Assembly: GCA_947501445.1 (NCBI GenBank)
Contig: CANMVS010000032.1
Location: forward strand, 1-41,131
Origin: an uncultured Rhizobiaceae group bacterium
Lineage (GTDB): Bacteria; Pseudomonadota; Alphaproteobacteria; Rhizobiales; Rhizobiaceae
DNA length: 41,131 nucleotides
Direction of reading: 5' to 3'
Of this stretch, positions 2,660 to 40,519 are shown piece by piece. How positions within the stretch are numbered: position 1 is the stretch's first letter; each line of letters starts with the position of its first letter. The position numbers were made by a program, and so were the translations under genes. The notes beneath the pieces are model-generated. The model searched no databases. It was given only the letters and a program-made list of their open reading frames with translations, and was not told the DNA's origin.

Positions 2660-3166
2660 ATGGTAATGATGAACAGTTGGGACGACGGATGTTCGGTGCA
2701 ACCCAATGAAAGCGCGTTTCATTACGATGGGATGTTGGAAGAGCCTGAGCAAAGGCATCTGCGGGTCTGGAGCAATTCAGTAAACCCTGGGGAGGGCGCC
2801 AGACTTCAGAAAATCCTGTTAGCTGATGGTTTTATTGTGGGCGAGAGCTTGGATGAACCGGAAAATGCAGGAGTATTCAATACATCCAGCCAGGATCACC
2901 TATCACTGCTGACGTTACAACATGCGCCTGCCATGACGTGCAAACCGGCATGGGGACATTGTTTTCAGGGTCTGAACGAAAGCATCGAAAAAAACGACAA
3001 GCGCCTGCCTGGTATCAACGTTGAATTAGTAGTGGCGCAAGACGCGGTTCTTGGCCGGGTTGCGCCCCAAGTGGGAACTGCACCAGATGTTGACAGGCTA
3101 CCACGTGGCGATGTGCGGTTTTTCGAACCATGTACCACCCGGCGAAATCGGGGAGGGCACAAGTAA
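2660..3166 (+). CDS. Small hypothetical protein overlapping the giant-gene start
   Basis: This is a candidate 168-aa protein of no recognised family. It is rich in acidic and polar residues and has neither a signal peptide nor a membrane segment. ATG at 2660 is chosen because GAGG sits about 9 nt upstream (2647-2650). The frame is open back to 2567, but that start has no clear ribosome site. The best argument that it is real is its end: TAA at 3164-3166 shares a base with ATG 3166 of the giant gene (TAATG), the usual sign of coupled translation. Against it, the sequence is not recognised and the upstream DNA looks degenerate. If real, it may be co-produced with the giant protein, for example as a leader or chaperone-like factor. 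That role is a guess. Confidence 0.38.
   Translation: MVMMNSWDDGCSVQPNESAFHYDGMLEEPEQRHLRVWSNSVNPGEGARLQKILLADGFIVGESLDEPENAGVFNTSSQDHLSLLTLQHAPAMTCKPAWGHCFQGLNESIEKNDKRLPGINVELVVAQDAVLGRVAPQVGTAPDVDRLPRGDVRFFEPCTTRRNRGGHK
3151..3157 (+). promoter_or_regulatory. Ribosome binding site that sets the giant-gene start
   Basis: GGGAGGG lies 8 nt before ATG 3166. The earlier in-frame ATG at 3130 has no such site, so 3166 is the preferred start. Confidence 0.6.
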
Positions 3167-6100
3167 TGGGCATTCATCACCGAGACCCCGCACTTCACCC
3201 GGCATTGCATTTTGATACGTTAGAGCCGCGATATCTGCTTAGTGCGGATGCGCTCGTGTTTGACATGGCCCAGCTTGATCTCAATGGAGCCAGTCATCAG
3301 GTTCTGCTGCGGATGCTGGAGCAGGCGGATAGCACACAACAAACAGCGCAGATGAAACAACGGGTGCAGATCGTTGACCGGAATTCAGGCACGATTTTGG
3401 CAGAACGCGCAGTCGAAGATGTCACGTCCATCAGTATCATCGGCAGTGATCGCGATGAAACGCTAATGATTGACAGCGACAGCTTTGGTGCGCTGTCGAT
3501 CCCCAAAATCACGTTCCTCGGCGGCGGTGGTGCGGACACTCTGGCACTTGCATCAGGTGGCGATACGGATTGGCTCGTTGGAGCAGATGGCAATGGCAAT
3601 GCGGTATCGGCGTCTCTGTCCGTTGATTTCGCCGAAGTGGAGCGGCTGGTCGGTGCAGCGAACACCGACGATACATTTACCGTTCAATCGCTTGCGGCAC
3701 TGGCCGAGGTTGATGGCGGGGATGGCGGGTTCGATTCATTGATCGTTGATGCAGCTCCCGCAGGAACGATGACGTTTGGCGCGTCGGGCCCGCAATCGGG
3801 TTTTGTCAGCGTTGATGGTGACAGGCTGGAGTATTCGGGGCTGGAGCCGGTGACGTTGTCAGCGACCGATGAACTGGTGCTGGACCTCACGCTATTGGAT
3901 CTGATGCCTGGCCTCAACAACAAAAACGTTGCAACCTTGATGAATGCAACGGCGGAAGGGTTTTCGGTTCTGAAATCCGAGAACGGCACATTTGAGACTC
4001 CGACATTTGCCAATCCCACGAAGAGCCTGACAATCAAACTTGGCAATAACGACGACCTTCTGACGATCGAGGGTTTGGATGCTGGTTTTGACGGTTCGCT
4101 GAGCGTTAAGGGTCAAAAAGGCAACGACAAAATCGTGGTCACGGGGGATTTGACGACGCCGGGCGGGCTAAGCCTTGATGCGGAAACCATCGTGATCGGC
4201 ACCACTCTGGGCGGTGTTAATGAGCAAGGTGATTGGGAGGCAAACAAACAACACGAGATCGCCGCAACGGGTGGGTCGGGGACTGGACTAAGTGCCGACG
4301 TCCTGGTCGATGCAGATGGCAATACGCGCCTTGCGTTGGTTTCGGCGGGTACCGGTTACACGGTCGGCGACATTGTAACATTCGCCGACCCGGATAAGGT
4401 GGGCACGGCGATCACGGCGGCTGTCGCGTCGATTGGAGACGGCAACGTAACACTATCGACTATTAGCAATAGCGCGGCATCCGGTGACATTGAACTGACG
4501 GGCGTACGAATCACTGCGGGCGCGGACAGCGTCCTGACAGCGAGGGCGGGCTCAGGGTCCGTCGCTTTTGCCGGCGATGTGTCGATCAAGGCGGAAAGCA
4601 AAAGTTCGATAGTCGACGATATCGCACGATACATATCTCTTCCTTTCGGAGTGTCGTCGATCACCTCGGGTGTTGGTTTGTCAGGTGTGACAATTTCGGG
4701 CAATGATATTTCAATCACGTCCACAGCTAATGATAAACAGTCAGCGAATCAGGCACCTGCGTTCGTCAAGCAATTCGTCGGTAATTTACAAGGGTTGCTG
4801 AATACTTTGTCCGACATCGCGCTTTCCAGCTTCCTGGGTATCAATGCGTCGGTGCTGATCCGGGCCGCGGATGCGTCCGTGATTGCACATGACAGCAGTT
4901 TCACTGCGACGGGCTCGGTCAATGTGAGTTCGCTCAGTCAGGCGGATGCGACTGGCACTGCGCTTACGGCAACGCGCGGTCTTGATGCAACTGGCAACTT
5001 CCAGATTGCTGTGGGATTTGCCCGTGCAGCGGGGACAGCCCAGACGTTATTGACAGGCACGACCAAAATTGATGCCGTTAACTCGGTAAGTGTTACGTCT
5101 AACTCATCGACGATTGCAAACATAACTGCCAGCACCTCTAACGTGGCCGAAGCGATTGCCATTGCAACCGACGGCAAGTCGTCGTTCAAGGGTAATGGCA
5201 CGTCTCTATCGGTCGGCATTGCCGAATCGGATCTCAAATCGCGAACCGTGCTTGGCAAGGGCACCTCCATCACCTCGACTGCGGGCAACGTTAATGTGCG
5301 CGCAGATGGCACGAACAACACGAAGGCTACGGCAACGGTGTATTCCTCGCTGGTGAGCCGTGCCGGCGTCATAGTGGGGCTGACGTTTGACTCTTCTACG
5401 GTCGAGACATTGGTCGACGGAACGATCAAGGCCAAAGGCACCGGGGCAAAAAAGGGCAGTTTCGACCCAAGCAAGTCGTCGGAATTGGTACAAGAGAATA
5501 CCATCAAAATTCCGGGCCACGGGTATAGCGAAGGGCAGAAGGTTGTCTACACGGCGGGCGGTACCAATTTCAATCCGTTTGGAACGGATTTCAAACCAAT
5601 TGGCGGGCTGATGAGTGGCAGCACATACTACGTACGCGTGGTTGATGCCGATACGATACAACTGACCGAACAGCCAGCGATTGATCTGGATAACGAACAT
5701 GTCAGCGATTATGCAGAACACCGCCTGTTGACAGCAGGTGCGGTGCCTTTTTCATTAGGTGCGATCGATGCCGAGACAGACCGGATCCGTTATCTTGAGA
5801 ATAAACTGGCGAACGGCACTGATCCGGTTTTCGTAACTTATGACGCGTCTGGAAATACTGCGATCTCTGGTCTGACGGATGGAGCTGTGTACCGTGTCCT
5901 GAACGCCGATGATGAAGGTTTTCAGCTACAGGCCGCGGATGCGGCGGCTGATGATCCGGCAATAGAGATTTCGCAAGGTACGGCTATTGGGCAACACGGT
6001 TTCAAAACCGCCGATGGAACGTCACTTAAGATAACGCTTGGGCTCATTGACGTCGATGCAGACATAATAACAGTCAAGGACCACGGTTTTGACGTTGATG

Positions 6101-9100
6101 ACATTGGGCCAACAAGGGTTTTCTACTCGACCTCCGGACTGGCAGCGAACAAGATCAACGGTTTGAATATCAATCAAGAATATGTATTACATGCGCTGGA
6201 TGCAGACCGCTTTCAGTTGCTGGTCGTAGACGCCACGGGGGCGATCGGCGAAGCGGCGGACCTCAGCGAGCCTTTGGCCGCAGGTTTGCATTCGTTGGTG
6301 TTCCAGAAAGTTGACAATCGCTTTTTGGCGGATCTGGACGTCGACTCCGCCAAGAACACCATAAAGATTTTGGACCACGGTTACATGACCGGTGACGTCG
6401 TGATCTATTCGGTTGATCCCTTAGGGACGGAGCAGAGAGAATACCCGTCGTTCGATGAAAACCGCGTCAGAACAATCGAAACTGCGACCGCCAGTGACCC
6501 CGCCATTGGCGGCCTGGAGGATGGTCAAACCTATGGCATCGTCGTGCAGGACAAAGATACGATCCGGCTGATCGCTGATCCGCTGCTGGCAGCCGGCGCA
6601 AAGGCCATCGACTTTACATCGGACGGCAGTGGCGAAAAACACGCCGTTACAGATGGCGTGGAAACGCGCGGGATAGGGGTACACGCAACGCTTGACGCAA
6701 GCAGCTCCGTCGCGGCATCGTCTTTCCTTGGATTTCCGTTCAATCCCACGAAACTGGTCAATCTCGATAGCAACTCGGACGCGCAGACGGCGGCTCTGTT
6801 TGGTGGGCTTAATGCGGTTGGTCTTCCTAAAGCATTCACGCCGGCAGCGTCAAAGGCGCAGGATACTCTGTTCGGTAATACCAGCAACTCCAATTACTCG
6901 TTCGCTGGTGGAGTGGGAGTTAATTCGGTAAAACATAATGTCCGCGCAGTGGTTGGGGGTGCCAGCGCTGAGAGTGGAGACCCCGGGGTTGAACTGATAA
7001 GTGGTGCTGATATCGACGTGATTGCGAAAATAAAGCAGCGTTATCAGTTGGATACTTCAGCCGAGGTCGGCGCAAAGACAGAGTATGGTGAAAGAGGGGG
7101 CACCGGCTCGCTCGCAATCGGGGTGAATGTCCTCATCAATAATGCATTGGCTGAGATCGGTGGAAATGCACGGCTGGACGCGCCGGGGAAGATCACTGTG
7201 TCGTCTGACGTCACCTATCCTTTCATCAAGACCTTCAATGACCTGGCTAACGCAGAAAAGCTTCTCGCGAATGGCGCCAGCGGCATTCGCGGGTTCCTTG
7301 GCCAGGCCTTCGGACTGACCGGCATGTTCAATTCCTGGGTGTACGCCAGGGCAAGCGAGAAGGGATCAACAGACGGGGTGGCGTTGAGTGGTGCGCTTTC
7401 GGTCAACGTGATGGTGAACGCATCTGACGCCGTGGTGCGCACCGGTGCGAAGATTAATCAAAGGCCGGGCGGCACAGCGGGTGATGTGGTTGTGCAGGCC
7501 GATACGAAGATAGACCTGCTGACACAATCGGGCAATGTGTATTTCATTCAGCCTGATTTGTTGAGCCGCCAGAAGTTTTTTCAGCAGAAGTCGTGGGCGG
7601 ATGTGTTGTCGCGCGGAAACCTCGCGGTTAACAATAGTTCCGATGGCGATGTGATCGGCGGTGCGGTTCTGATCAACGTCATGAAGAATTCCACCAAGGC
7701 GATCATCGAAGGCGGGGTCCAGATTGCGGCCCGCGCCATGTTGGTGAAGGCCAAGGAAAAAATCTTTTCGGTACAACTGGGTGCTGCGGGCGGCGAGGGC
7801 GGTGCCACTGGCGAAAGGAACTTTGGTGGTTCCCTCAACGGTATGGTCCATCTGTCCGACACTTATGCCGGGATCGTGACCACACCGACCCGAAAGACCA
7901 GTATCGTCGCGACCAGCCTGGATATTCACGCCAATTCCGAGATGCTCCACGTCAATATCACGGGGTCGCTTAATATAAGTGCTGGTGGCAATTCGGTCGG
8001 CGTCTCGATAGGGCTTAATATTATCGACCGCGATACAATTGCATTCATCGGCAAGGGCCCCAATGGAGGCACGATCAATGACGGGGGAGTCGATCCGGAC
8101 ATCAAGGTGGACCGACTTGATATCAACGCGCGCGCGGATGGCGGATCATTTGTGTTTGCTATTGCTGGTAGCGTGGTGACCGATCAGACCGCAAAAGCGA
8201 CCCCAGACGACCAGTATCCAAATAATCTTCTTCTGCCTGAGGGGGCAAAACTCGGTGCAGAGATCGGGCCAACAGGTGGGGGGGTCGGCATTTCGGGGTC
8301 CGTGGCTATCAATGTTCTCACCGATAACACGCAAGCCTATATCGATACGCAAGGGACTATTTCAACGGCTACAGCCCGCATCGCTGCTGAGAACTTGACC
8401 AATTTGGTCGTAGCGCCCCTCGCTGGGTCGTTTAACTTCGACACCAAGTCAGATAACACTTCGGGGTCGAAGACCATCGGCGGTGTTTTAGCGCTGAACA
8501 ATAGCAAGAGCCGGACAGAGGCTTACCTTAAGCGCGGTAAACTGCTGTCACGCGCCAACGGCGCTGGCATCGCCGGCACGGCAGACGTTGAAATTGAAGC
8601 ATTGCGCGGCGGACGCATTTATTCGTTCTCTATTGCGACAGCGATTGACCCGTCTGCTGGTTCCAAGGCGTTTGCCGGATCGCTCGCGTTCAACCGGATC
8701 GAAGACAAAACGCTGGCCTATATCGACGGCGCGAAGATCACGGCGTTCGGGGGCGGTAAAGACAAATTGGGCGATGTGAAGATCTCCGCGAGAAATACGT
8801 CGCAGATGCTGGTCATCGGAGGCGGTGCCAGTTTTTCCGGCAAATTGGGTGTTGGCGGGTCGATCAGTTACAACCAGATTAGCAGCACCACCAAGGCCAG
8901 CATTCTGGGTACCACGATGCGCAGCGTCGTGACCACCGATGGTAAGCTGGACGTTCTCGCCGAAAACAGCAATGTCATTCGCGCGTTAGCCGTTTCGGCA
9001 GGGGTGCAGGCGGGCGCATCTGATGGTCAATCGAATGCGGGTGCCGTAACCATCGCGATCAATATCCTGTCCACCGATCCTGTAATATTCACGGACAAAG

Positions 9101-12100
9101 ACGGGCTGGAGCAGCACGCGGTCGCTGCAATCATCTCGAATTCTGGTGTGACGTCTGGTGGCAGTGTGACTGTGAAGGCAGAAGATAGTTCAGTCATTCA
9201 GGCGATTGGCGGCGCACTGGGTATCGGGCTGGACGCAAACGCATTTGGCGTGGGCGTGGGTTGGAATCAGATCAACGCCAGCCTGCGTGCGCGCATCGAA
9301 AATGGTGCCGTCGTGACTCTGACCGGGGCAAAAAGCGATCTGGTACTGCAAGCGATTTCCAGCGAAGAAGATGATGTGCTCGATGGCAAGATTTCGGCAG
9401 CCACAGTTGGTGGTGCGGTTGGGGGTGGCCGGGCCATTGGTGCCTCGCTTGCGATCAATGGGATTCTTATCAAGGTTGATGCTGAGATTGACGGTGATAA
9501 AACGATGGTTAAGGCCGATGGCAACGTAATCGTCAAGGCCGAGGATGAGGGGCAGATACGTGCGCTATCCGGGGGCGCTGGGATCTCACTAATTGGGGAT
9601 AGTGCTGGCGTTGGCGCTGGAATTTCTTCCAACTACATCTCAAATTCCATTTCCTCGGGCATCATCGGGGCAACCGTCACAGCGGGATCTGGCGGAGCCA
9701 GCAACAAAGACGTGCGTGTCGAGGCCTCAGAGAATGCCCGCATCGGTGCGTTGACTATCGGTTTGGCTGGGTCCAACGCATTGGCGGTCGCAGGATCGCT
9801 ATCTGTTGCGGTGTTCAACAATAAAGTGGAAGCAGAGATCAGCGGTTCTGCCAAAGTAACTGCAACGGGCGACGTTGCGGTTCTGGCAACGAACAACGTA
9901 AATTCCTTGATTATCGCAGGGGGTGTTTCGATCGGCAGCAGGGGGGCGTTCGGCGGCTCCATCAGCTCTCTCACCGTTGTAAACAAGACAAAAGCCTATG
10001 TCGACGGGGATGCGATTGTCACTGCACGCACAGTGTCTGCAGAGGGTATAGGTGTCACCGATACATTCGGGGCCGAGCGCAAGGGCGTAATTATTCAGGC
10101 GGTGTCTGACCATACGATCACCAACATCGCTGTCGGTGGCGCGGTCAGCGGCACCAGCGTGGCCGGTGCAGGTGCTTCGACGATTACGGTGGTTGATGAT
10201 ACCGTCGAGGCCTTTGTTTCGGCCCGGACTAACAGCAAAGGGAAAATCACGACAGGCGCAGACCTTGTGGTCCTGTCCAATAGTGATTTGTCGCTAACCG
10301 GTGTAGCGGGGGCTCTCGGGGGCAGCACCAGAGGTGTCGGTGTCGGGATCGGTACAGACGTGGGGGTTGTCACCCGGCGCAACCATGCGTACCTGGATGA
10401 AAACACAAAAACAGTCGCTGAAAATGACGTCGTGGTGGTCGCACGCGGATCTGAGCGGGTAATTGCGATTTCGGCGGCTGCCGGTGGCGGTCAAAAAGTT
10501 GGTGTTGCAGGGACCGCCGGTGTCGGCGTGATGAACCTGACAACCATGGCGTTGATAAAATCGGGTGCGACGGTTACCGCCCAAAATAATGTACTGGTGT
10601 CAGCGGATGATGACACACGTGTTGACCAGATCGCTGGCAGTGCAGGTGTAGCTGTCAAGGTTGCCGTAGGCGTTGCGGCTGGTATCGGCACGATCGATAA
10701 ATCCACTGTTGCCGAAATTCTGGACGGCGCGACTGTAACCGCACATGCGAGGGGTGACGGCATCACTGCCTTCTCGGGTGAGTTCGAGGCGACTAACCTC
10801 GCGGTTGGCTTCATCAACAGCGACGTCAATAATGGTGTCATCACAACGAAAACCAATCATGGTTTTGTGACAGGCGATCAGGTTGTTTATTCTGGGGATG
10901 CAAGCTTTCTGAACGACGGCAACGTCTACGGCGTGGAGCGCGTCGATGCTACGAATTTAAGGTTGACGAACGCTAAAAACGGCAAAGTTCTCATGTTTGA
11001 TGCGGGTAGCGGCAATGCGTTGCATACGCTGCGCAAGGTGAACAGCCAGTCCGTGGGAAGTCTTGCGGAATTGACAACCTCAGATGTCAACTTTGCCACC
11101 GATACGCTGCATACTGACGCGGCGCATGGCTTCGAGACAGGTCAAGAAGTTGTCTATACCGCCCAGAAATATTTTTTGGGGGGGCTGGCCAACGATGCAA
11201 CGTACTACGTGATTCGTGTATCCGACACTGAATTCCGCCTTGCCGTCAGTCGTGAAGATGCATTGAACGGCACGGGTGTATTGGATCTGACCAAAAATGG
11301 CGAGGCTGACGATGACAGCCATACATTTATATCTTTGGCATCCGGTGGTATGCCGCTACTGGACAATGAAAATCTGAACGACCCGGGCCTGTTTGCAGAT
11401 GACAACAGCAGGGCGGGGACGACCCTTTCACAGGGCGTGATCGTCACCGCAATCTCTACCAATGATGTGGTTTTGGCCGGTGCCGGTGCAGCATTGTCAG
11501 GCATAGGCTCGGTATCAATTGCTGCGGCTATCGCGGTGCATGATATCGATACGCGTGCAGCCATTGGCGAAAATGCGACAGTTAAGGCGACCGACCATGA
11601 CGTACGGGTTACAGCCGCGCGTAATTACGATGCAATCGGTGTTGCAGCAGGGCTGAGTGTTACAGGCAGCGTAGCAGTAACACCTGCTGTGTCTGTGCCG
11701 GTATTGAAGGGTGCGACAGAGGCCATTATCAATGGCAATGTCGACGCCGCAGGCAATGTTACGGTCAATGCCAATGCCCAATCTAAGATTATCAGCGTTG
11801 GTGCCGGCATCGCCGGGTCTCGTGAAGTATCAATCGCGGGCTCTGCTTCTGCGATTGTTATCGACACGACGACGCGGGCCCTGATCAGCGGCGATTTGAG
11901 GGTGTTAGCCGGGGGCAATGTCCTGGTTTCTGCGGTTGATGATACTGAAACCTATTCAATAGCAGGTGCGGTTGGTGTGGGTATCCTGGGGGGCGCTGGC
12001 GCAGGCGCACTGGCTGTGACAGACATCAACAAAACAACCGCGGCAAGGATCGAACAGGGTGCACGGGTCGATGCACATTCGGCAACGGCTGGCAGTATGC

Positions 12101-15100
12101 CGAACCTTCCCACAGGCGAAACAAGCGGCAACGCCTTTGCGCGTACCTCTGCCAAGGGTGTGGCGGTTTTGGCCGATAGCTCCGAAAAGGTCCTGAACGT
12201 CTCAGTCAGTGGCGGAATTGGCTTGTATTTGGGTATTGCAGGCGCGATCAATGCCAGCGTGATCGACAGTGACACCTCCGCTGCCATCGACAGCGGAGCA
12301 CTGGTGAACCAGAATGCGCCAACTGCAGCGACAGTTAACGTATCGGCCACAAACGACCTTGATATTGAATCGACTGCTGGCGGTGTGGGCGCCGGATTTG
12401 TTGGTCTTGGCGCTTCAATTGATGTCGGGGTAATCCGCAACGACACCAACGCGTTGATTGGCGGGGTCGGAACACGGGTTTCCGCGAGAGATGAAGTCGA
12501 TGTGAACGCACTTTCAGACTGGAAGATGAACAGCACTACGCTGGGCTTTAGTGGCGGCACTGTGGGCCTCAGCGGCGGCATCGTTGTTTACAGTATCGGT
12601 GGCAATTTTTCAGACGATTTCGCATCGGACACTGACAGCGCCAGGGCGCTGGATACAAATAACGGCAGCGTTGATACCTTCGTCAAAAATGAGCTCACTG
12701 CCATGATGGGCGAGGCGACGGGCAAAGAAGCGGGATCGGATGCATTCTCGCCGTTTGACAGTGCCGTTGTTGACACAACAAATGACACGATCACCCTTGG
12801 TGAGGACGTTAGTCTGACGACCGGGGATACAGTAATGTATGATGTGGGCACAAATGGCACACCAATGTCCGGTTTGGTCCATGGACAGACCTACTTTGTG
12901 ATCGTGGATGATAACAATCCTGGCAAGATCCAATTGGCCGAGACGCAAAGTGATGCGCGGTCGGGTACGGCGATCGATTTCGACACCGCGGGTGTCACGG
13001 GAACACAACACCGCTTTCTGAACGGCAGCGCAGACATTGGCAACGTAACACGCAATACGATCGAGGCGAATTCTGCTGCGGGTGGCGTCAATGGCGCGAT
13101 TGCGAAGAATACAAATGTAACCGCAGGCACTGTCGCAGCGATTGAAGAGGGGGCCGTCGTTCAAGGCCGCAATGTCGATATTGACGCACGCCAATTCTTA
13201 TCGCAAAGCGCTGTTGCAGGCGCGGCCGGGGTTGGGCCTGTGGCCGCTATTGGTGTTGGGTTGGCGGTTGTGACCGTTGATGCGGATGTTGCAGCTTACA
13301 TGGGGCCGAATGTGACGCTGATAGGTGACGGAACCGGTAACGTGACTATTAATGCTGCCTATGATGGCGATTTCAAGATTACAGGCGTGGCGGGTGCCGG
13401 CTCGACCCTGGCGTCGGCTGCTTCGGTAGCTTCGGTTGTAAATGACGCAACGCGGGTCGATGCGCTGATTGGCGCGCGCCCGGCCGGTAGCGGCATTCAA
13501 GGCGATATTGCCAAACCAGACAGCAACATGGTTTCCGGATTCCTGGATGTGACGGTCGATGCAAAAGCGGATGTGGCCTATGGTCTGATGAACATTTCGG
13601 CTGGGATCTCAACAGTAGGGGGGGGATTGTTTACGGCCATCGTGTCGGCGGATGTTGACGTCTCGGTGACGGCGGCTGTTGGCGAAAATACGCGGATCAA
13701 CGCAGACCGTGACGTCAAGATCAATGCTGACCGGACAGTGGACGTACTGCCGCGGGATGGCCGCGGGCGGGAAATGGGCATCGCCATCGGTATCGGCGCT
13801 GGCATCGCCGGCGTCAGCGCCGGGTTTGGCAATGTCTCGATTGGTGGTGATACGTTAGCGCTGGTGGACGAGGGGGCCCATATACTGGCGGGCGGTAATG
13901 TCAACGTCACAGCGAAGAATGATACCGAGCTGGAAATACGGTTGAGGGGTGCCACTGCAGGCCTTATTGCCGTTGGTTTGGTCTTCGGAAAATCTGAAGT
14001 CACTGGTGCCACGCAGGCCCGCGTTCTCGCTGGGGCGCGCATTCGCGGTTCGAATGTCGTCATTTCGTCGGACAACAATGCCGACGCTGATATCAAGGCG
14101 TCGCCAGCAGCTGGGGGGGTTATTGCCGGGAGTGGTGTGGTAATCAATGCGGTGATCACAACCGGGGCAGTGTCTGAAGTTGCGGATGGCGCTGTCGTCA
14201 CTGCAACATTGGACGATAAAGCCGATGTCTCTGCGTTGCGGGTCACCGCGACCTCGAAGGCAAATGCGGATGCTGACGCGGATGACACTGTTCTGGTCGG
14301 CGCAGTTGCCTTTGGCTCGAACGATGCTGATATCACAATCACCAATAGTGCCCAGGTTATCATTGGCGCGGTTGACGAGTCGGGCACACCCACCGGTGCA
14401 AAGCTGGAGGCTGAGCTGGGATCGATCGATGTGAAAGCCAGTGCTGTCACCACAGGCAAGGCCCATAGTGATGGTCAGGGCTTTGGCGGGATAGCGATTG
14501 CCTTGGGCTCTGCAAGCGGCGCGATCCAGAATGACACGATTGTCACCATTGGCAGCCTGTCGGAATTGACGGCCAAACGGGCTGTGCTGATTGATGCGAA
14601 CACCGATACCGACACATTCGTCGAAGTTAATACAAATGGCGGAGCCCTTGGTACAGGTGGTGCCGCAGATGCAACCCTGAATGTCACTGACACCACGTTG
14701 ACCGACCTGCGTAAAGGGGCAAAGCTGACGGGCGATATTGTCAAAGTACATGCACGTCAGGTGCAGGCCGAAGCAGACGCCACAACCACGGCGACCCTTG
14801 GCGCACTGATCGCTGGTACGAGGGCGGTTTCAACGGTGAATACAACGATAGACGTTGATGTCAGGGTTGCGACTGACGTGATTCTGACGGGCGAGACATC
14901 GGTTGAACTGATAGCCGATCAGGCAGATATCGACACGGGCGCAGCCAGCGCCGTTAAAGTCACCGGTGTTTGGCGGGTCGGAACGTTGTCCAAAGCCGTG
15001 TACACACTAACCAGTCATACCGACGTCAGTACTGCCATCGGTTCGGTGATTAGAACCCGTGATCTGGAAGTACACAGCAAAGCCCATACGTCGCCCGAGC

Positions 15101-29193: not shown

Positions 29194-29931
29194 ATGGCCA
29201 ATCAACTGTTGTTCTACAAAAGTGCGGTTCCTCTATCAAGCGAAGAGCATCGCGATTTCAGTGTGCGCACAGATGGAACATATGGCTTTGCCGACACTGT
29301 CAATTCCGTACCGATCGTCGCTGCAGAGTTTCGTCCCGCAGCCAGTGATTGTGCGATTGTCTTTGCAGGCGAGGGCGATACTGTCTTTCCGGTTGTGATC
29401 CTTGGTCTGCAAGAGTCCGAAAACCTTTATGTTGATGCGGATAAAAGCTGGAATGGCCGCTATGTTCCCGCTTTCGTGCGTCGTTATCCTTTCGTGTTTG
29501 CAACCGGTGAGGATGAGAATTCATTCACCCTTTGCATCGACACCGAATATGAGGGTCTCAACAGCGACAATGAGGGCGAACGCCTTTTTGACAGCCGCGG
29601 TGAGCGCAGCAGCTACCTTGAGGGAATTCTGGGTTTTGCCAAGGATTATCAGGCTCAGTTCGTGCGCACGCAAACATTCTGCAAGCGTCTTTCGGAGCTC
29701 GAATTGCTGGAGCCGATGCAGGCGCAGTACCGCACCCCTGCAGGTGACACCGGCCGCCTCAACGGGTTTTCGGCGGTAAATCGCGAAAAACTCAAAGCAC
29801 TCTCGGGTGAAACAATTGAGCAGATGTTACAGACCGATGAACTGGAACTGTTGTTCGTACACCTTCAATCGCTCAGCAATCTTCAACCTCTTGCCGAACG
29901 GGTGGAGACGAAATCCGAGCAATTGAACTGA
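29194..29931 (+). CDS. SapC-family protein
   Basis: The 245-aa protein matches the SapC family pattern: an N-terminal PLSSEEHRDFSV-like segment, a VPIVAAEF strand, a GxNLYVD-like core (ESENLYVDADKSWNGRYVP), an FVRRYPFVF motif and a C-terminal helical region with LSGE. The family name comes from a Campylobacter S-layer locus, but a biochemical role is not established. The start is supported by AGGAG (29181-29185) 8 nt before ATG. It follows the giant gene by 177 nt in which I see no convincing terminator, so read-through from the giant gene is possible. A gene of this family beside a surface giant protein is suggestive of surface-layer or export work. That is inference. Confidence 0.85.
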   Translation: MANQLLFYKSAVPLSSEEHRDFSVRTDGTYGFADTVNSVPIVAAEFRPAASDCAIVFAGEGDTVFPVVILGLQESENLYVDADKSWNGRYVPAFVRRYPFVFATGEDENSFTLCIDTEYEGLNSDNEGERLFDSRGERSSYLEGILGFAKDYQAQFVRTQTFCKRLSELELLEPMQAQYRTPAGDTGRLNGFSAVNREKLKALSGETIEQMLQTDELELLFVHLQSLSNLQPLAERVETKSEQLN

Positions 29932-30230
29932 TGCTGAGGATGGTGTCGGTTTCCGACGTTTCATTGTGTCTTGGTCGTGGTGTCAGAAATTCCAATCTGG
30001 AGGAGCAACCCGCCAAAAACCATCAACGCAGGTATGGTTTTGGCTAAGATCATGAATCTTGATCGGTGATCTGCGGACAACACGTGTGCGGCGGGTTTGG
30101 AACACATGCATGCAACATGAAAGCCAAACCTGAAATACCTTGGAAATGCTGCAGATCATCCGATCAAGTCGGCTTGCTATCGTCTGAAAGGAGCACCGCA
30201 ACTTTTCTACTAGTGAAACGGAGGAGTGGA
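29932..30230. other. Convergent intergenic region with hairpin 30012-30044
   Basis: The region between SapC and the oxygenase gene has no supported gene. GCCAAAAACCAT (30012-30023) pairs with ATGGTTTTGGC (30034-30044) with one bulged A and a 10-nt loop. A short GTCGG/CCGAC hairpin sits at 29945-29957. Either could be the shared terminator of the converging genes, though the T-tracts are poor. Confidence 0.4.
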
Positions 30231-30899
30231 TTATCGGCTGTGCTGATACATGTTGAAGCTTACAATCACACGGTCGCCGGCTTCTCCGGCTACTTTGGTA
30301 AGGTTCGTCTCAACGCTGTGATACAGCCAGCTCGGGAACAACAACAAGCGTCCTGGCATCGGCTCAAAGAATACTTCGGCCCAATTGTCTGCTGTGCGCG
30401 GCGTGTTCGGGTCAAACTGCCCAGGCCGCATCAAATGTTGCGTGCGTGGATCGGTGAAACTGATACGTCCGGCACCTGGTGGCGATTGCACATAATAGAC
30501 GCCGCTCCATAGGCTGCCGGGATGAACATGCGATTTGTTGTGACTGCCTGCAGGATTGACGATAGACCACATGCTGCTAATCGCGAGCGGCCATTCTGCG
30601 TCATAGTTCTGTAACGTCGCAACCTCCTTTGAAAACGTGAGGATTTGCTCCGTCAATGCAGAAAATTTGGAGTTAAGATGCAGTTCATTTTTGCTATGCC
30701 AGCCACCCAAGCGTGGTTCATTCGAACGGGTTATTCCCTCAACGTCTACACTTTTTTCAAAGCGGATTGCCTCCAAAATCTTTTTATTGAGCGTCTCGGA
30801 TTCGGGCAGGTCCTGATAAAAAACAAATGTCGGAAAATATGCTTCGCGAAACACTGCTGGTGTGTGTTTCCAGCCACTCTCGGAAACGCTCTTAGTCAT
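30231..30899 (-). CDS. TIGR02466-type 2OG-Fe(II) oxygenase
   Basis: This 222-aa protein fits the putative 2-oxoglutarate/Fe(II) oxygenase family known as TIGR02466. It shows the strongly conserved N-x-x-G-x-x-N-x-x-H-x-H-P block (NPAGSHNKSHVHPG, with H124 and H126), SGVYYV, the ISFTDPR strand (146-152), a LFPSWLYHSV motif with H194, and R210 in RVIVSFN as the likely 2-oxoglutarate contact. The start is supported by TGAGGA just upstream with a 6-nt spacer. The protein is cytosolic. The substrate is unknown; some relatives in phage and bacteria hydroxylate proteins or small molecules. It stands divergent from the export operon and convergent to SapC. A role in modifying the giant protein's Asp/Asn-rich loops is speculative. 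Confidence 0.85.
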   Translation of the reverse strand: MTKSVSESGWKHTPAVFREAYFPTFVFYQDLPESETLNKKILEAIRFEKSVDVEGITRSNEPRLGGWHSKNELHLNSKFSALTEQILTFSKEVATLQNYDAEWPLAISSMWSIVNPAGSHNKSHVHPGSLWSGVYYVQSPPGAGRISFTDPRTQHLMRPGQFDPNTPRTADNWAEVFFEPMPGRLLLFPSWLYHSVETNLTKVAGEAGDRVIVSFNMYQHSR

Positions 30900-30972
30900 T
30901 GTTTTTCCTCAAGTAATTTGTTGATTTTGACGTAGGTGCAACGTATGATGAATTGGCATGGTTGTGGGGCAA

Positions 30973-31002
30973 ATTCTATCATTTTCTGACTGCAACCAGC
31001 AA
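30973..31002 (-). promoter_or_regulatory. Candidate promoter of the oxygenase gene
   Basis: On the minus strand TTGCTG (31002-30997) and TAGAAT (30978-30973) are spaced by 18 bp, some 75 bp upstream of the ATG at 30899. The match is moderate. No equally good promoter was found for the divergent plus-strand operon. Confidence 0.3.
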
Positions 31003-31104
31003 GAGGATTGGACATGTTTTCTGCTCGTTTTTTGGTTTTCGCGGGTGTTTGTTTTCCGAAGGAAGGTCCAATTTCCATATGGGCTTTAAATTATTCATGA
31101 GCAC

Positions 31105-33000
31105 ATGTTCAGCACCCAAGGTCAAAGCCTGATGGCGTCTCAACTTCAACGGAGAAGAATGCCGGCAAACGGCCCTGGTGTTGCGTCATCTGCGCGCGAT
31201 GTTGATGCTGCATGGCTGGCGTTGTCCGGCGCTTCCTCGCTCGAAGATTTGGCTGATCCCTGGCTCACTTTGCAGGTGCGAATGGCAGGTGCAGATGGTG
31301 GTGCCGTGTATCTTGTCAAGACGGATGTCAACGCAGAACAGGCACGAATGATTGCCACAAAAGGAAATGTGTCCGCGCCGGATCTGGATCCAATTGCAAC
31401 GCAAGTTTTCGAAACTGGGCGACCCGTTTTGTCGCGTCCGACGGATTCGCCTCAGTCAGCGTTTGTCGGCCATCCTGTAATGGATGAAACGGCGGTTGTT
31501 TCGGTTGCAGTGGTTCTGCTGATCAGCGACGCCAACCCTCAACGGGTGCGCAATGCTGCACGCGCGCTTGCGTGGGGATCGGTCTGGTTGCGCGAGTGCT
31601 TGGCACGGGAAGGTCGTCGCCAAAGCGATCAGAAGAAGAAGATAATGCGCGGTGCGCACGAAATATTTGCTGCGATGATTGAGGATCATCAGGCACATCG
31701 CGCGGCACTTGGAACTGTTACACGCCTGGCGCAAGAGGTGGGGGCGGAACGTGTATCTTTAGGGTTTCGGCAGCGCGGGCAGGTGCGATTGACGGCGATG
31801 TCGCACTCAGCTGAATTTCGCAAACAGATGAGTTTGTCCCGCCGCGTTGCAGCTGCGATGGACGAAGCGATAGACCAACGTGCTGCACTAAGTTATCCGC
31901 CGCCTGACAATGAGATAAACGCGACTCGCGCGCAAAAGGAGCTTGCCGGTGATGATGGTCGTTGTGCAGTTCTGACGATACCGTTCATGATCGGGGCAAT
32001 TCACCAGGGCGCAGTTACACTGCAACGAAATGAGGATCACCCATTTACAGCAGATGAGGTCGCGTTTCTGGATTTTACTGTCAGCCTTGTCGGGCCGGTT
32101 TTGTGGGATAAGAAACAAAATGATAAGTGGTTGATATTAAAGGTTACTGATACGATCGGGCGACAATTGATCAGGCTGTTTGGCCCTGGATATGCGTTGC
32201 GAAAGCTGATTTTTGCGACACTGATTGGGCTTGTCGTATTGTTTTCCATGTGGTCTCGCCCGTATCGGATCGGGTCCGATGCAGTCGTTGAAGGTGCGGT
32301 GCAGCGTAGCATTGTGGCACCCTTTGATGGGTTCGTACGTGATGCGCCCGTAAGGGCAGGTGACCTGGTTGCAAAGGGTGATCTGATAGCGGCACTTGAT
32401 GATCGTGATCTGGTTTTGCAACGCCTGCATTGGATGACAGAGCGTCGCCAAAAAGAGTTGGAATTTGGCCGTGCTATTGGCAAGCAAGATCGCGCCGAGA
32501 GCAAAATTTCCCGTGTGCAGATTGCGCAAGCAGAAGCTCAGATTGGTCTGATCGATGCACACCTTGATCGGGCAAAGCTTATTGCACCATTCGATGGTAT
32601 AGTTGTGTCGGGCGATCAAAGTCAGAATATCGGCGGATCTATTTTACGCGGCACGGTAATGTTTGAAGTGGCTCCTGTGGACGATTACCGAATTGTCATG
32701 AGTGTTGACGAAAGCCGTATAAGCGAAGTCAAAGTAGGTCAATCAGGCGATTTGGTGGTCACAGCGCTACCCGACACAGAATTTCCGTTTAAAGTGAATA
32801 AGATAACCCCGGTTGCCCAGGCCATTGAGGGCAACAACACATTTCGGATTGAGGCTGCTTTTGTCGGTCCGACAACAGCACTCAGGCCCGGGATGCGCGG
32901 TGTCGCAAAAGTTGATGTTGACGATCGACTGGTCGTTTCCATCTGGACACGCGAATTGACCGATTGGGTCAAACTTACACTTTGGTCGTGGTTCGGTTAA
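31105..33000 (+). CDS. HlyD-family adaptor with N-terminal GAF-like region
   Basis: The 631-aa protein opens with a soluble region of about 340 residues with GAF-like features (GGAVYLV, VGAERVSLGFRQRG, GAIHQGAVTLQR). One membrane helix follows at about 366-384. The C-terminal periplasmic adaptor part has a first lipoyl half (VAPFDGFVRDAPVRAGDLV, ~404-422), a short helical hairpin (~430-490), a second half (LIAPFDGIV, 492-500) and a beta-barrel (~525-605). Such adaptors bridge inner and outer membranes in export machines. A cytosolic GAF-type sensor fused to one is unusual and could gate export. Starts at 31105, 31132 and 31159 are all possible; AAGG or GGAG precede the later two. It opens a four-gene operon with 3 nt to the next gene. 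Confidence 0.82.
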   Translation: MFSTQGQSLMASQLQRRRMPANGPGVASSARDVDAAWLALSGASSLEDLADPWLTLQVRMAGADGGAVYLVKTDVNAEQARMIATKGNVSAPDLDPIATQVFETGRPVLSRPTDSPQSAFVGHPVMDETAVVSVAVVLLISDANPQRVRNAARALAWGSVWLRECLAREGRRQSDQKKKIMRGAHEIFAAMIEDHQAHRAALGTVTRLAQEVGAERVSLGFRQRGQVRLTAMSHSAEFRKQMSLSRRVAAAMDEAIDQRAALSYPPPDNEINATRAQKELAGDDGRCAVLTIPFMIGAIHQGAVTLQRNEDHPFTADEVAFLDFTVSLVGPVLWDKKQNDKWLILKVTDTIGRQLIRLFGPGYALRKLIFATLIGLVVLFSMWSRPYRIGSDAVVEGAVQRSIVAPFDGFVRDAPVRAGDLVAKGDLIAALDDRDLVLQRLHWMTERRQKELEFGRAIGKQDRAESKISRVQIAQAEAQIGLIDAHLDRAKLIAPFDGIVVSGDQSQNIGGSILRGTVMFEVAPVDDYRIVMSVDESRISEVKVGQSGDLVVTALPDTEFPFKVNKITPVAQAIEGNNTFRIEAAFVGPTTALRPGMRGVAKVDVDDRLVVSIWTRELTDWVKLTLWSWFG

Positions 33001-33003
33001 GAC

Positions 33004-35151
33004 ATGGGTGAGTCGGTTTTTAGTCAGAACTGGTTTAAAGTTGCAACAATGCAGCCGCGTTTGCGAAGCCATGCTCGAATCTATCGACAACGGTATCGCG
33101 GTGCCACCTGGTTTGTCATCCAGGATGATCAAACCGGTCGTTTTCATCGCATCGCACCTGCCGCCAATCGGATGATTGGTCTAATGGATGGCCACCGGAC
33201 ATTGGATCAGATTTGGAATGCCGCAAATGCCTGGGTTGGTGAGAAAGATGATCCTCCGACACAGGATGAAACCATCCGATTGATGGCTCATTTGCATCAG
33301 GCCGGCCTGTTACTGGGAAATTTCCCGCCTGACATCGAAGAACTGGCGTATCGGGCAGATAACCGGGCAAAAAAGGCGTTGATTGCTCGTTTTAAGAACC
33401 CATTGGCCCTGCGGTTGCCTCTATGGGATCCCGACAATTTTCTGGAAGCCACGCTACCGTTGGTTCGACCGCTGTTTACCCTGATGGGTGGGGTCCTGTG
33501 GCTTGCGGTCGTGATTGGCGCGCTGGTGGTTGCTGTGCTCCATTGGTCCGAGTTGACGACCGGATTTATTGATCGGGTATTTCTGGCAGAAAATTTGATA
33601 TTGATGGCACTTATTTACCCCTTTATCAAAGCATTGCATGAATTCGGGCACGGTTATGCGATAAAATATTGGGGCGGCGAAGTGCGTGAAATGGGCCTGA
33701 TGTTTCTGGTCCTGATCCCCGTGCCTTACGTAGATGCATCGGCCTCAAGTGGATTCCGAAGTAAATGGTCGCGCGCCATGGTTGGTGGGGCCGGTATTCT
33801 GGTTGAACTTTTTTTCGCGGCAATCGCAATGTTCGTTTGGATCGAGGCAGAGCCCGGCTATATACGTGCGGCTGCGTTGAATGTGATCCTGATCGGCAGC
33901 GTTTCAACGCTATTGTTCAATGGAAATCCACTATTACGTTTCGATGGCTATTATATACTGTCTGATCTGATCGAGATCCCAAATCTTGGCAACAGAGCTA
34001 ATTCGTACTTTTTTCATCTGGTCAAAAAGTATCTTTTTGGGATGGCAAATTTATCTTCTCCCACAACGGCACGCGGTGAGAGTGGCTGGTTCTTCTGGTA
34101 TGCTGTTGCGGCGTTCCTGTATAGGCTTTCAATAATGGTCGGGATCGCTTTGTTCATTGCGGGAAAGCTGTTTTTTATTGGAATCGGACTGGCGATTTGG
34201 GCGGTATTGAGCGCGTTGGTTTTCCCCATCGTTAAAGCCCTGTGGTGGCTATTCCAGGCCCCCGAATTACGCAACAAACGAATTCGCGCAGTGTTGGTCA
34301 GCGGTAGTTTTGCACTTGTTTTTTTTGTCGGGCTTCTGGCGGTTCCAATACCCTATGCAACAACAGTTGAGGGTGTGATTGATGTTCCTGAATCGTCTGT
34401 TTTAAGAACCAATTCCGGCGGGTTCCTGAAATCCCTTTCCGACGGCGGATATGTGGAGAAGGGGGCGTTGGTTGTCGTTTTGACCAACAGGGAGTTAAGC
34501 GCGCGGCGGGACTTGATTTTTGCTCAGCGGGCTGAAATCCGGTTGAGGATGGAACGAGAACTTGTTTCAGACCGGGGGAGCGAAAGCATCTTGCGACAGC
34601 AATTGGAACAGTCACAAGCGGCTCTTGCGCAAATTGAGGAACAGATAGCCGACCTGAACCTGTTCGCCGGCAAAAAGGGACGTCTCGTGGTACCTGACAG
34701 AGCGTCACTGCTGAACAGATTTGTCGAACGCGGTACGCTTGTGGGCTACATTGTGGATGACGATGATCTTGTCGTGCGCTCGATGGTAGAACAGGGCAAT
34801 TCGGATTTAGTGCGGCATCGCCTGCAAAAGGCAGAAATCATGCTGTCCAGCGACCGGAACAGCATAATCGAAGCACATCTGATCCGCCAAGTGCCCAAGG
34901 CAACAAAGCGGCTCGCATCTGTGGCTCTGGGAACTGAAGGGGGCGGGCGAATTGTAATCGACCCGACCGCAGGCGACGCGCAAACTGCTTTGGAACCGCT
35001 CTTCCAATTTGATCTCATAGCGCCACTTTCCTCAAGCAATCTGGAAATCGGGCAGAGGGTCTATGTTCGATTTAGTCACGGCAATGAGCCCGTATTCTTT
35101 CGAATTTTCCGTAACGTGCGGCAACTTTTCCTGAGTAAGTTTGATGTCTAG
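33004..35151 (+). CDS. PqqD-like / M50-type membrane protein with adaptor arm
   Basis: The 715-aa protein combines three parts. Residues ~20-105 look like a PqqD-type domain (FHRIAPAANRMIGLMDG, LMAHLHQAGLL). Residues ~150-450 hold about ten hydrophobic helices including the site-2 protease-type motif HEFGH at 212-216 and NGNPLLRFDGYY at 306-317, where the Asp would complete the zinc site. Residues ~450-715 form an HlyD-like adaptor with a coiled coil (~500-550) and lipoyl/barrel strands. Relatives are usually annotated as putative peptide zinc metalloprotease proteins and occur with adaptor and peptide-export systems. The motif residues are intact, so proteolysis of a membrane or signal segment is possible. 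It may also act mainly as a membrane scaffold. It starts 3 nt after the GAF/HlyD gene and overlaps the SecA gene by 8 nt. Confidence 0.85.
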   Translation: MGESVFSQNWFKVATMQPRLRSHARIYRQRYRGATWFVIQDDQTGRFHRIAPAANRMIGLMDGHRTLDQIWNAANAWVGEKDDPPTQDETIRLMAHLHQAGLLLGNFPPDIEELAYRADNRAKKALIARFKNPLALRLPLWDPDNFLEATLPLVRPLFTLMGGVLWLAVVIGALVVAVLHWSELTTGFIDRVFLAENLILMALIYPFIKALHEFGHGYAIKYWGGEVREMGLMFLVLIPVPYVDASASSGFRSKWSRAMVGGAGILVELFFAAIAMFVWIEAEPGYIRAAALNVILIGSVSTLLFNGNPLLRFDGYYILSDLIEIPNLGNRANSYFFHLVKKYLFGMANLSSPTTARGESGWFFWYAVAAFLYRLSIMVGIALFIAGKLFFIGIGLAIWAVLSALVFPIVKALWWLFQAPELRNKRIRAVLVSGSFALVFFVGLLAVPIPYATTVEGVIDVPESSVLRTNSGGFLKSLSDGGYVEKGALVVVLTNRELSARRDLIFAQRAEIRLRMERELVSDRGSESILRQQLEQSQAALAQIEEQIADLNLFAGKKGRLVVPDRASLLNRFVERGTLVGYIVDDDDLVVRSMVEQGNSDLVRHRLQKAEIMLSSDRNSIIEAHLIRQVPKATKRLASVALGTEGGGRIVIDPTAGDAQTALEPLFQFDLIAPLSSSNLEIGQRVYVRFSHGNEPVFFRIFRNVRQLFLSKFDV

Positions 35152-37147
35152 CACACACATGCCCGAGTTTAGAGCAGACAGAATTGCGCGACTTGCCTGG
35201 TTCGGCCATGAGGCAGAGCTTTCGCGATCAGAGGTTTTTGACAAAGGCGTCGTGGCCCTGCAGGCCGGGGCTCTGGCTGGATGGACACGCACACGTGGCT
35301 TGCAGACCCGTTCCATTGTGGATGCCGTTGCGCGTGCTGGCCGGGAACTGGGCGGCATGTGCGACGCTGAAATCATCCTGCAAGCACGCCAATCCGGCTA
35401 CGCTGCGCGAGGCGACGACCCTGCGAAACTCTGTCATGTTGCACCGCTCTTTGCATTGGTGAGTGAGGTTGCGTTTCGCAAGTTGGGAATGCGGCATTAT
35501 CCTGTTCAGTTGCGTGGTGGTTATGCGATGATGCGTGGGCAGATGGCCGAAATGCAAACCGGGGAGGGCAAGACCCTCACTGCAACACTGGCAGCCGGCG
35601 CGATGGCGCTTTCAGGTCGCCCGGTTCACGTTGTAACAGTCAATGATTACCTTGCTGCCCGGGATGCCGAGGAAATGTCCCCGGTCTATGAGGGCCTCGG
35701 ACTGACCGTAGGGTTGGTTGTTGAAGGCATGTCTGCTCAGGATCGCAAACGTGCCTATGCCGCAGACATAACCTATTGCACCAACAAGGAACTTGCGTTT
35801 GATTTTCTAAAGGACAGAATTGACCCCTCCGCAGGAAATGGTCATCTAACGCGGCGCGTACGGTCAATGTATGATGGTGTTTCAAATCAGAGTGAAACCG
35901 TTGGCGGCATGATGCGCGGATTGGCCTTTGCGTTGATCGACGAAGCCGACAGCGTCCTGATTGACGAAGCTCGGACACCGCTCATCCTGTCCGGAGAAGG
36001 CCCAGCGCTTTTCGATCCAGATCTGTTACACCAGGCAGAGCAACTTTCCCGGCGGCTGGGGCAGCGTGATTTTCGCATCATCGGTAAAGAACGGCGAATC
36101 GAATTGACCGCATCGGGCATTCGGCGACTAGAAGAAGCGAAGGTTGGTGGCCTACTCGCCAATCGTGCCGCAAGAGAAGATCTTGTAACAAAGGCGTTGA
36201 GTGCCAGGCACCTTTTTTTCCGCGACGAACAGTATCTGGTCCGCGATGGCAAAGTCGAGATTATCGATGAGTACACAGGACGTGTGATGACCGATAGGTT
36301 CTGGGTTGATGGGCTACAGCAATTGATCGAGCAAAAAGAAGGGCTTGAACTGTCAAAGGGCCGCATCACGCTGGCGCGAACAACGTACCAGCGGTTTTTT
36401 CGCCGATATGATCGTATCGCCGGAATGTCTGGTACAATACGCGAAGTTGCACCGGAACTTTGGCGAACGTACGGTGTCGCAGTCGCTACGATACCTACCA
36501 ATCGTAAAGTGCTGCGCCGGATGAGAACCACGCGGATTTTTTCAACACATGTTCAGAAATGGGCAGCAATTGCTGCAGAGGCAAAGCGCTTAAGTGAAAA
36601 TGGCAACCCTGTTTTGATAGGAACGCGAACAGTTGCCGGCAGCAAGTTGGCAAGTCGCGCGCTTGATAATGCAGGATTGTCGCATGTTGTGTTGTCTGCA
36701 GAGCATTTTGCTGAAGAGGCCGAGATTATCAGTGCAGCCGGACGCGCAGGGCAAGTGACCATCGCCACTGATATGGCGGGGCGCGGGGCGGATATTTCGC
36801 TTGATTCAGAAAGTCAAAAAGCAGGTGGTCTCTGTGTGGTTATGTCTGAAGCCCACGACAGTATGCGCATTGACCGGCAGTTGGCTGGACGTGCCGGGAG
36901 ACAGGGTGATCCGGGTCAGTTCCAGCCGTTTCTGGCGTTGGATGACCAGCTTCTGGCTGACTACGGTATCAATTGGATTTTACGCGCCGCTTCGTGGATA
37001 AAAACTCTGCGTTCGCCACTGGCACGGTACTCTTTCCGCCGAGCGCAATCGAAAGCAGAAGCCGTACACGTTCAAATGCGGCGTGATCTTCTCAAACAAG
37101 ATGAGGTGCTTAACGATGCAATGTCGTTCAGTGGTGATCCGGATTAA
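35144..37147 (+). CDS. SecA-like translocase ATPase lacking the C-terminal third
   Basis: This 667-aa protein (ATG 35144; a TTG one codon earlier is also open) is a SecA-family motor. With residues counted from that TTG, it has Walker A QTGEGKT (139-145), the DEAD box DEADSVLIDEARTP (267-280), a preprotein-crosslinking region (about 305-400, with DGKVEIIDEYTGRVM), GMSGT, motif TDMAGRGADI (543-552) and the arginine-finger motif GRAGRQGDPG (583-592). It ends about 75 residues later, inside what would be the long scaffold helix (QSKAEAVHVQMRRDLLKQDEVLND). The helical wing, the two-helix finger and the zinc-binding tail of housekeeping SecA (about 900 aa) are absent. The stop is natural and the next gene overlaps it, so this looks like a designed short form and not a fresh truncation. 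The upstream overlap is ATGTCTAG. It probably energises export with the neighbouring adaptors. Confidence 0.9.
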   Translation: MSSTHMPEFRADRIARLAWFGHEAELSRSEVFDKGVVALQAGALAGWTRTRGLQTRSIVDAVARAGRELGGMCDAEIILQARQSGYAARGDDPAKLCHVAPLFALVSEVAFRKLGMRHYPVQLRGGYAMMRGQMAEMQTGEGKTLTATLAAGAMALSGRPVHVVTVNDYLAARDAEEMSPVYEGLGLTVGLVVEGMSAQDRKRAYAADITYCTNKELAFDFLKDRIDPSAGNGHLTRRVRSMYDGVSNQSETVGGMMRGLAFALIDEADSVLIDEARTPLILSGEGPALFDPDLLHQAEQLSRRLGQRDFRIIGKERRIELTASGIRRLEEAKVGGLLANRAAREDLVTKALSARHLFFRDEQYLVRDGKVEIIDEYTGRVMTDRFWVDGLQQLIEQKEGLELSKGRITLARTTYQRFFRRYDRIAGMSGTIREVAPELWRTYGVAVATIPTNRKVLRRMRTTRIFSTHVQKWAAIAAEAKRLSENGNPVLIGTRTVAGSKLASRALDNAGLSHVVLSAEHFAEEAEIISAAGRAGQVTIATDMAGRGADISLDSESQKAGGLCVVMSEAHDSMRIDRQLAGRAGRQGDPGQFQPFLALDDQLLADYGINWILRAASWIKTLRSPLARYSFRRAQSKAEAVHVQMRRDLLKQDEVLNDAMSFSGDPD

Positions 37148-37982
37148 TCAACTTATTGCAGGGCTGCTTGCATTGTTTGCACTAAACCGGCCTGCAATTG
37201 CCAACGTGGAGTTTGACTGTGTAGTGCAGCCAAGTCGCACACTTGCCATTGGTAGCCCTGTTACCGGTATTCTAAGCGAAGTTATCGTGGAGCGGGGAGA
37301 TAGGGTCAGCAGAGGCCAGGTCCTGGCACGATTGGAGGCCGAATTGGAAACCGCGATCGTTGAGTTGAACACTCTGCGTGCCGCCGATGACACCAGCATC
37401 AAAGCGCAACGGGCTCGGTTGCGGCTCGCGCAGGATCGCATGGTTCGTTCGCAAAAGTTGTTTGAGCGCGGTGTCACCGCGGAGGAGGCGTTTGATCAGG
37501 CGACTGCAGAATTGAGCGTAAGCGAGGCTGAACTGGAACGACTAAGTGTACAGCAACAACTTGCGGCATTGGAATTGCAACGTGCAAAAGCAGCATTGGT
37601 TCGCCGCACGATCAAAAGCCCGATCGATGGTATCGTTGCTGCACGCCGGTTGTCGCCTGGTGAGTTCGTCACACAGGAGGCGTGGATTGTGCAATTGGCG
37701 GATCTTGATCCACTTTACGTCGAGGTATTTTTGCCAACTTCGTACTATGATCAATTGGCGGTAGGGCAACTTGCGGAAGTAGCACTGCGACAGCCTGCAA
37801 ACACGCGTCTTGAGGCGGAAGTTATCGTCGTTGACAGCGTTTTTGATGCTACTTCAAGCACGTTCGGCGTGCGTCTGGCACTACCGAATCCCGAAGCTGT
37901 GCTTCCAGCAGGCCAGCGATGCAAAGTGTCGATGGAAATCGAAGAAGTGGAGCAAGAAACAGGTGGTCTTGGCCTGGATTGA
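37116..37982 (+). CDS. Secreted HlyD/RND-type periplasmic adaptor
   Basis: The 288-aa protein has an N-terminal signal peptide (QLIAGLLALFAL, likely cut after AIA near residue 29), then a first lipoyl half (GSPVTGILSEVIVERGDRV), a coiled coil (~70-160), a second half (IKSPIDGIVAARRLSPGEFV) and a beta-barrel (~195-275). ATG 37116 is chosen over 37101 and GTG 37083 because GAGG (37103-37106) precedes it by 9 nt and the signal peptide then has normal length. The gene begins inside the end of the SecA-like gene, overlapping by 32 nt. With no inner-membrane anchor, it is a free periplasmic adaptor and would complete a periplasmic bridge made with the two anchored adaptors. It is the last gene of the operon. 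Confidence 0.85.
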   Translation: MQCRSVVIRINQLIAGLLALFALNRPAIANVEFDCVVQPSRTLAIGSPVTGILSEVIVERGDRVSRGQVLARLEAELETAIVELNTLRAADDTSIKAQRARLRLAQDRMVRSQKLFERGVTAEEAFDQATAELSVSEAELERLSVQQQLAALELQRAKAALVRRTIKSPIDGIVAARRLSPGEFVTQEAWIVQLADLDPLYVEVFLPTSYYDQLAVGQLAEVALRQPANTRLEAEVIVVDSVFDATSSTFGVRLALPNPEAVLPAGQRCKVSMEIEEVEQETGGLGLD

Positions 37983-40414: not shown

Positions 40415-40519
40415 TTGAAAACCCTTTTCCCGGCGCTGCGATTTGGGAGATCTGGAATTCTTTCCGCCTGTGTTCAAAACAATGTTTCAAAGTCGCCAGA
40501 GCGCGACACGAAACCATCT

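Follow-up and report, generated by a model that had tools for sequence, protein, structure and literature searches.

Giant LExR-tagged proteins as candidate cargo of an M50/HlyD export locus with a short SecA in one branch

Judged from its genes, the locus described here is probably a dedicated exporter for giant proteins with an N-terminal LExR leader. The best reading is that an exporter built from M50, PqqD-like, HlyD and TolC parts would recognize this leader, with a short SecA as the putative ATPase in one branch of the family. Comparison of predicted genes between genomes shows that the M50/HlyD fusion occurs together with the leader and the adaptors and, in one branch, also with the short SecA.

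The window, which is the whole stretch of DNA that was analyzed (41,131 nt), is one contig (C32) of a 6.8-Mb genome. It carries a giant gene and an export operon of four consecutive genes on the plus strand. The first of these encodes a GAF-domain/HlyD adaptor (31105..33000) composed of an N-terminal half with the GAF domain, one transmembrane segment and an HlyD part. It is followed by a fusion of a PqqD-like domain, an M50 intramembrane protease and an HlyD part (33004..35151), by a short SecA (35144..37147) whose gene overlaps that of the fusion by 8 nt, and by an HlyD/RND-type periplasmic adaptor (37083..37982) with a hydrophobic N-terminal segment. The 2.1 kb between the giant gene and the operon holds the genes for the accessory protein SapC (29194..29931, plus strand, matching Pfam PF07277) and a 2OG-Fe(II) oxygenase (30231..30899, family TIGR02466). 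The latter is on the opposite strand and probably lies outside the export system. A preliminary description had placed four export genes close behind the giant gene; the four-gene operon was found as described, but these two genes stand in between. Its statement that an ABC ATPase is absent held, as no match to ABC ATPase families was found among the window proteins scanned. The window yielded no TolC gene; two OEP/TolC-like genes occur on other contigs of the source genome. The window also encodes, on the minus strand, an XRE-type helix-turn-helix and IrrE-like peptidase M78 protein (126-1250), an AraC-family regulator downstream of the operon (38568-39872), and at the contig end a Gly/Ser/Asn-rich frame without a Pfam match (39713-40477) that resembles part of a surface protein.

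The giant protein, which is the presumed cargo, is encoded on the plus strand by a single open frame at 3130-29016, corresponding to 8628 amino acids if translation begins at the first ATG. A start at the ATG of position 3166 is likelier because a GGGAGGG stretch lies directly upstream of it, which places the gene at 3166..29016. With 27.4 bits against a curated cut-off of 17, the protein passed the LEPR-XLL model NF012209, in agreement with its earlier assignment. Its domains include repeats (NF012206, LktA_tand_53), PKD and laminin-G-like (Laminin_G) domains. The leader motif LEPRYLLSAD (3205..3258, plus strand) conforms to the pattern found among the giants, which is LExR, hydrophobic residues and then SA(D/E) or D(A/G)A. 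Leaders were classified as S type or D type by the residue after the hydrophobic pair, and the window leader is of the S type. Giants without a match to NF012209 also bear the LExR tag. A first composition rule for recognizing giants flagged 33 of 47 loci and missed some; 7 of the 14 unflagged loci contain a plus-strand ORF of more than 2,000 aa just under the composition threshold.

The LExR leaders appear to lack a signal-peptide-like stretch, as does that of the window protein. Over 12 residues, the hydropathy of 36 leaders ranged from 0.32 to 1.81 (second highest 1.44), whereas 42 secreted-type adaptors gave values of 1.70-2.91. A 15-residue window, which was the first measure used, did not separate the leaders from secreted proteins, and in the longest uncharged run the leaders overlapped with the secreted-type adaptors (two leaders at 24).

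The M50 part of the fusion has the expected catalytic residues. H212, E213 and H216 of the HExxH motif and the second Asp, D314, lie in the membrane domain and were invariant in two alignments. The window protein itself matched the M50 and PqqD families below the Pfam cut-offs, with 18.1 bits (cut-off 27.2) and a weak 18.2 bits (cut-off 23.4), respectively. Among 27 aligned relatives, M50 was matched in all 27 and PqqD in 19, with a best E-value of 9.5e-9 (E <= 0.1). Residues 18-406 also matched the daptide protease model NF041824 with 159 bits, below the cut-off of 300. The fusion thus resembles the M50 proteases of daptide and RiPP pathways in combining a PqqD-like domain with an M50 membrane part; unlike these, it is fused to HlyD and linked to giants rather than to small peptides.

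A TolC gene adjoins the operon in some relatives. Of the 47 loci with 9 kb of sequence to either side, however, phmmer detected TolC in only 6, which counts against the exporter model. Two loci (L071:3834-5930 and L075:13888-15957) have an outer-membrane protein of the ShlB/FhaC type, known from two-partner secretion, by the operon, and no TolC match. TolC-type proteins with TPR matches are found beside mid-group operons (L091:10445-13033 and L088:4149-5753). SapC and DUF3467 were considered as SecB-like chaperones and rejected, since neither predicted structure (pLDDT 87.8 for SapC; pLDDT 71.7 and pTM 0.47 for DUF3467) gave a PDB match at E <= 0.001.

The short SecA matched SecA_DEAD with 305 bits and SecA_SW only over positions 4-38 of 200, under the cut-off. 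It covers the two nucleotide-binding domains as well as the preprotein-binding domain (PPXD) and breaks off where the scaffold begins. The wing, the two-helix finger and the C-tail, as these parts of SecA are commonly named, are missing. Relatives have the same length and the same end. Walker A was found in 67 of 68 intact copies and DE[AV]D in all 68, and 51 of the 68 carry an xFSG-like tail, as scored with a loose pattern. In a SecA tree, 36 short and 16 housekeeping SecAs fell on opposite sides of one branch with a support of 100; the tree contained no SecA2 rows and therefore separates the short SecA from the housekeeping SecA only. Normal-length SecA-like copies with none of the four motifs searched for (Walker A, DEAD and two others) occur at five loci (L080, L086, L169, L172 and L188), and three of them keep the usual C-terminal tail. 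Such copies are perhaps partners of an intact one.

A second SecA with conserved ATPase motifs is also a feature of SecA2 accessory Sec systems. The short SecA might aid the housekeeping SecYEG in moving the giant, with the adaptors forming the outer half of the pathway only. It is 42-46% identical to housekeeping SecA and matches SecA2 structures, and kinship with actinobacterial SecA2 is reported in the available text of Kamneva et al. 2015 (PMC4452313). We nevertheless consider this route improbable. The combination of scaffold and two-helix finger that characterizes a SecA2 translocase is not found in the short SecA, the gene sits among M50/HlyD genes, and the giants offer nothing that resembles a signal peptide.

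Co-occurrence of the giants and the export genes was surveyed in genomes of the class and of the phylum. A first scan of genome contigs with a single window protein as query gave no match. Among 190 genomes of the class, LEPR was found in 4 and the M50 fusion in 10 (E <= 1e-10), and no further short SecA frame was seen. The phylum survey of 299 genomes yielded the M50 fusion in 84 (E <= 1e-20), a LEPR match in 50 (E <= 0.01) and the short SecA in 29 (E <= 1e-110). LEPR and the fusion occurred together in 48 genomes, LEPR alone in 2, the fusion alone in 36 and neither in 213; for the short SecA and the fusion the corresponding numbers were 29, 0, 55 and 215. The correlation between LEPR genes and the operon that the preliminary description called for is thus borne out, with the fusion in 48 of 50 LEPR genomes as compared to 84 of 299 overall. 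Fisher p values serve as a guide only, since the surveyed genomes are related and not independent. LEPR was present in 28 of the 29 short-SecA genomes. The two LEPR genomes without a fusion are G384 and G451, and the match in G451 is in a 64-aa frame. At least 36 of 77 LEPR places were on the same contig as an M50 fusion and at least 34 within 20 kb of it; for the 62 places whose frame spans 1000 aa or more, at least 33 were within 20 kb. The short SecA lay directly downstream of the M50 place in at least 33 of 36 cases. That the giants and the export module are linked is very likely.

The operon could in principle serve another substrate, such as a modified, daptide-like peptide, and have the giant as a neighbor by chance or for reasons of regulation. 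The match of the fusion to NF041824 would fit this, and no LEPR match was found in 36 of the 84 M50 genomes. The explanation is very improbable in view of the co-occurrence of LEPR and the module, the pairing of leader and M50 types described below, and the tag on giants that the LEPR-XLL model misses.

The same arrangement was found in named records, in which 551 stretches encode a relative; the best 80 were kept by likeness to the alignment of SecA-type fusions, and the numbers that follow refer to these. The closest named relative among them is Puniceibacterium sediminis, with 76% identity over the M50 fusion. A GAF/HlyD relative was located upstream of the M50 gene in all 75 loci that offer 1.5 kb or more of sequence there. 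A SecA-like gene was present in 72 of the 74 loci that extend 1.5 kb downstream, and three of these genes (L169, L172 and L188) are motif-less. Where 4 kb of downstream sequence was available (66 loci), an HlyD relative was seen in 55. At 45 of the 80 loci the operon has SapC and/or DUF3467 nearby. An ABC exporter consistently beside LEPR-XLL genes would have spoken against the proposal; an ORF with ABC motifs was found close to the operon in no more than 2 of the 47 loci with 9 kb to either side, and in 3 of all 80. The two loci without a SecA gene are L157 and L174. In four of the five exception genomes (L157, L174, L169 and L172) an intact short SecA is encoded elsewhere, and the fifth (L188, Seongchinamella) has only the motif-less copy and a full-length SecA. 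Gene order is kept in annotated plasmid records, for example those of Methylosinus, with TolC, of Pseudosulfitobacter, with a LEPR-XLL gene of 38.7 kb, of Pontibrevibacter, and of Thalassospira, whose locus is without SecA. Besides Alpha-, Beta- and Gammaproteobacteria, the locus was found in records with the titles Desulfobacterota-type, Nitrospiraceae, Rokubacteria and Omnitrophota.

A sister branch of the family does without SecA. Its 26 loci have the M50 fusion and HlyD genes, often with TolC, and gave no SecA match. In a tree of the fusions, 39 SecA-type and 26 SecA-less proteins were on two sides of one branch with a support of 100; L079, L095 and L105 grouped with the SecA type though their loci show no SecA. 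The SecA-less loci include one of 18 matching Escherichia plasmid records. In an E. coli plasmid (NZ_CP081687, L101), a SecA-less operon is accompanied by a 13.4-kb Ig-like giant with a leader-like tag at its N-terminus. In the phylum survey, 35 genomes were counted as having SecA-type fusions (34 at E <= 1e-89 plus G197), and 28 of these contained the short SecA at E <= 1e-110. With a looser threshold, G301 and G277 also carry a short SecA beside the M50 fusion, and incomplete ones are found in G248, cut by the contig end, and G462, with an internal stop. The SecA copy of G191 is motif-less. G359 and G197 have a SecA-type M50 protein and a leader, and only full-length SecA, no short SecA, was found in them. 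Since 26 loci are SecA-less and five SecA copies are motif-less, SecA does not drive the family as a whole; G359, G197 and the Seongchinamella genome are further exceptions. The original idea of a SecA-driven exporter is partly supported, in that LEPR giants are associated with the module.

Leader type follows the M50 branch. For this comparison 40 of the 77 LEPR places were retrieved, at least 32 of them within 20 kb of an M50 fusion. Beside SecA-type fusions there were 18 S-type leaders and one D type, and beside other fusions one S type and 12 D types. The sole S-type leader in the latter group belongs to G197, whose fusion (E = 2.3e-89) is just outside the SecA-type threshold. In genome G194 leader type and M50 branch agree in all three pairs. 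ORFs of at least 250 aa in further loci were then scanned for the leader pattern, with the expectation derived from shuffling. SecA-less loci gave 14 matches in 338 ORFs (0.0 expected), all of them giants and all of the D type; SecA-type loci gave 14 in 1944 ORFs (0.95 expected), of which 13 were giants, all of the S type. At L079 and L105 the leader type follows the M50 fusion though these loci have no SecA. Pairing of leader and fusion even without SecA fits recognition of the leader by the fusion, which we think likely on these sequence correlations. Common descent of the two could produce the same pairing without contact.

These observations also bear on the role of SecA. It may be a docking or regulatory part of an M50/HlyD/TolC core that uses another energy source, a reading that we rate as unlikely. 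It is in line with the SecA-less sister branch, with the five copies that have lost the ATPase motifs, most of them retaining the C-terminal tail, and with the leader type tracking M50 at L079 and L105. Conservation of the ATPase motifs in 67-68 of 68 intact copies argues against it, as does the intact copy elsewhere in four of the five exception genomes. A motor function of SecA within its own branch is on balance favored.

In the exporter that we propose, the PqqD-like domain of the fusion would bind the leader in the cytoplasm, as domains of this kind do with leader peptides in RiPP pathways. The M50 membrane part and the GAF/HlyD protein would form the entry at the inner membrane. We give an even chance to cleavage of the leader by the M50 part, which would take place near LLSAD. 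The short SecA, with ATPase motifs and no two-helix finger, would feed or ratchet the chain into the M50 entry and not into SecYEG. The chain would cross the envelope through the HlyD adaptors and a TolC-type protein whose gene lies elsewhere in the genome, and SapC (DUF3467 in relatives) would be an accessory protein. Such a system would be like type I secretion (HlyB/HlyD/TolC) in its HlyD-type adaptors, the TolC gene of relatives and the very large repetitive cargo. Type I cargo has a C-terminal signal; the window system differs in the N-terminal tag on its cargo and in having no ABC ATPase.

The proposal of SecA in place of an ABC protein is not new. According to the available text of the in silico study of Kamneva, Poudel and Ward 2015 (PMC4452313), a secondary SecA_DEAD or T1SS-like locus comprises GAF/HlyD, Peptidase_M50/HlyD, SecA_DEAD without SecA_SW and HlyD genes, sometimes with OEP, and no ABC gene; SecA_DEAD is proposed there as the ATPase and M50 as the pore. 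One operon that the study names is META1p2402-2399 of Methylobacterium extorquens AM1. The window operon corresponds to this locus in both respects, with a SecA_DEAD protein without a full SecA_SW and with M50/HlyD, GAF/HlyD and HlyD neighbors and no ABC gene. That text assigns no biological role to the locus. Its main text nowhere uses "giant", "LEPR" or "PqqD", and we did not find LExR giants, leader types, the SecA-less branch or motif-less copies there. A later paper, in the part available, cites the study in passing, and no account of the cargo of this module was found in the open-licence literature.

New here is the link of giant LExR cargo to the published module. Tentatively, with a probability just short of even, the giants and their operons could constitute a class of secretion system of its own. 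In it, the M50 protein would take the place of the ABC transporter as both leader receptor and membrane gate, the two branches would have matching leader types, and one of them would use a short SecA without two-helix finger as its ATPase, independently of SecYEG. Through the giants and their leader, the question of what the secondary SecA_DEAD locus exports becomes open to direct tests. If the proposal is true, some of the largest bacterial proteins would be exported by a trimmed SecA and a membrane protein of protease origin in place of an ABC exporter.
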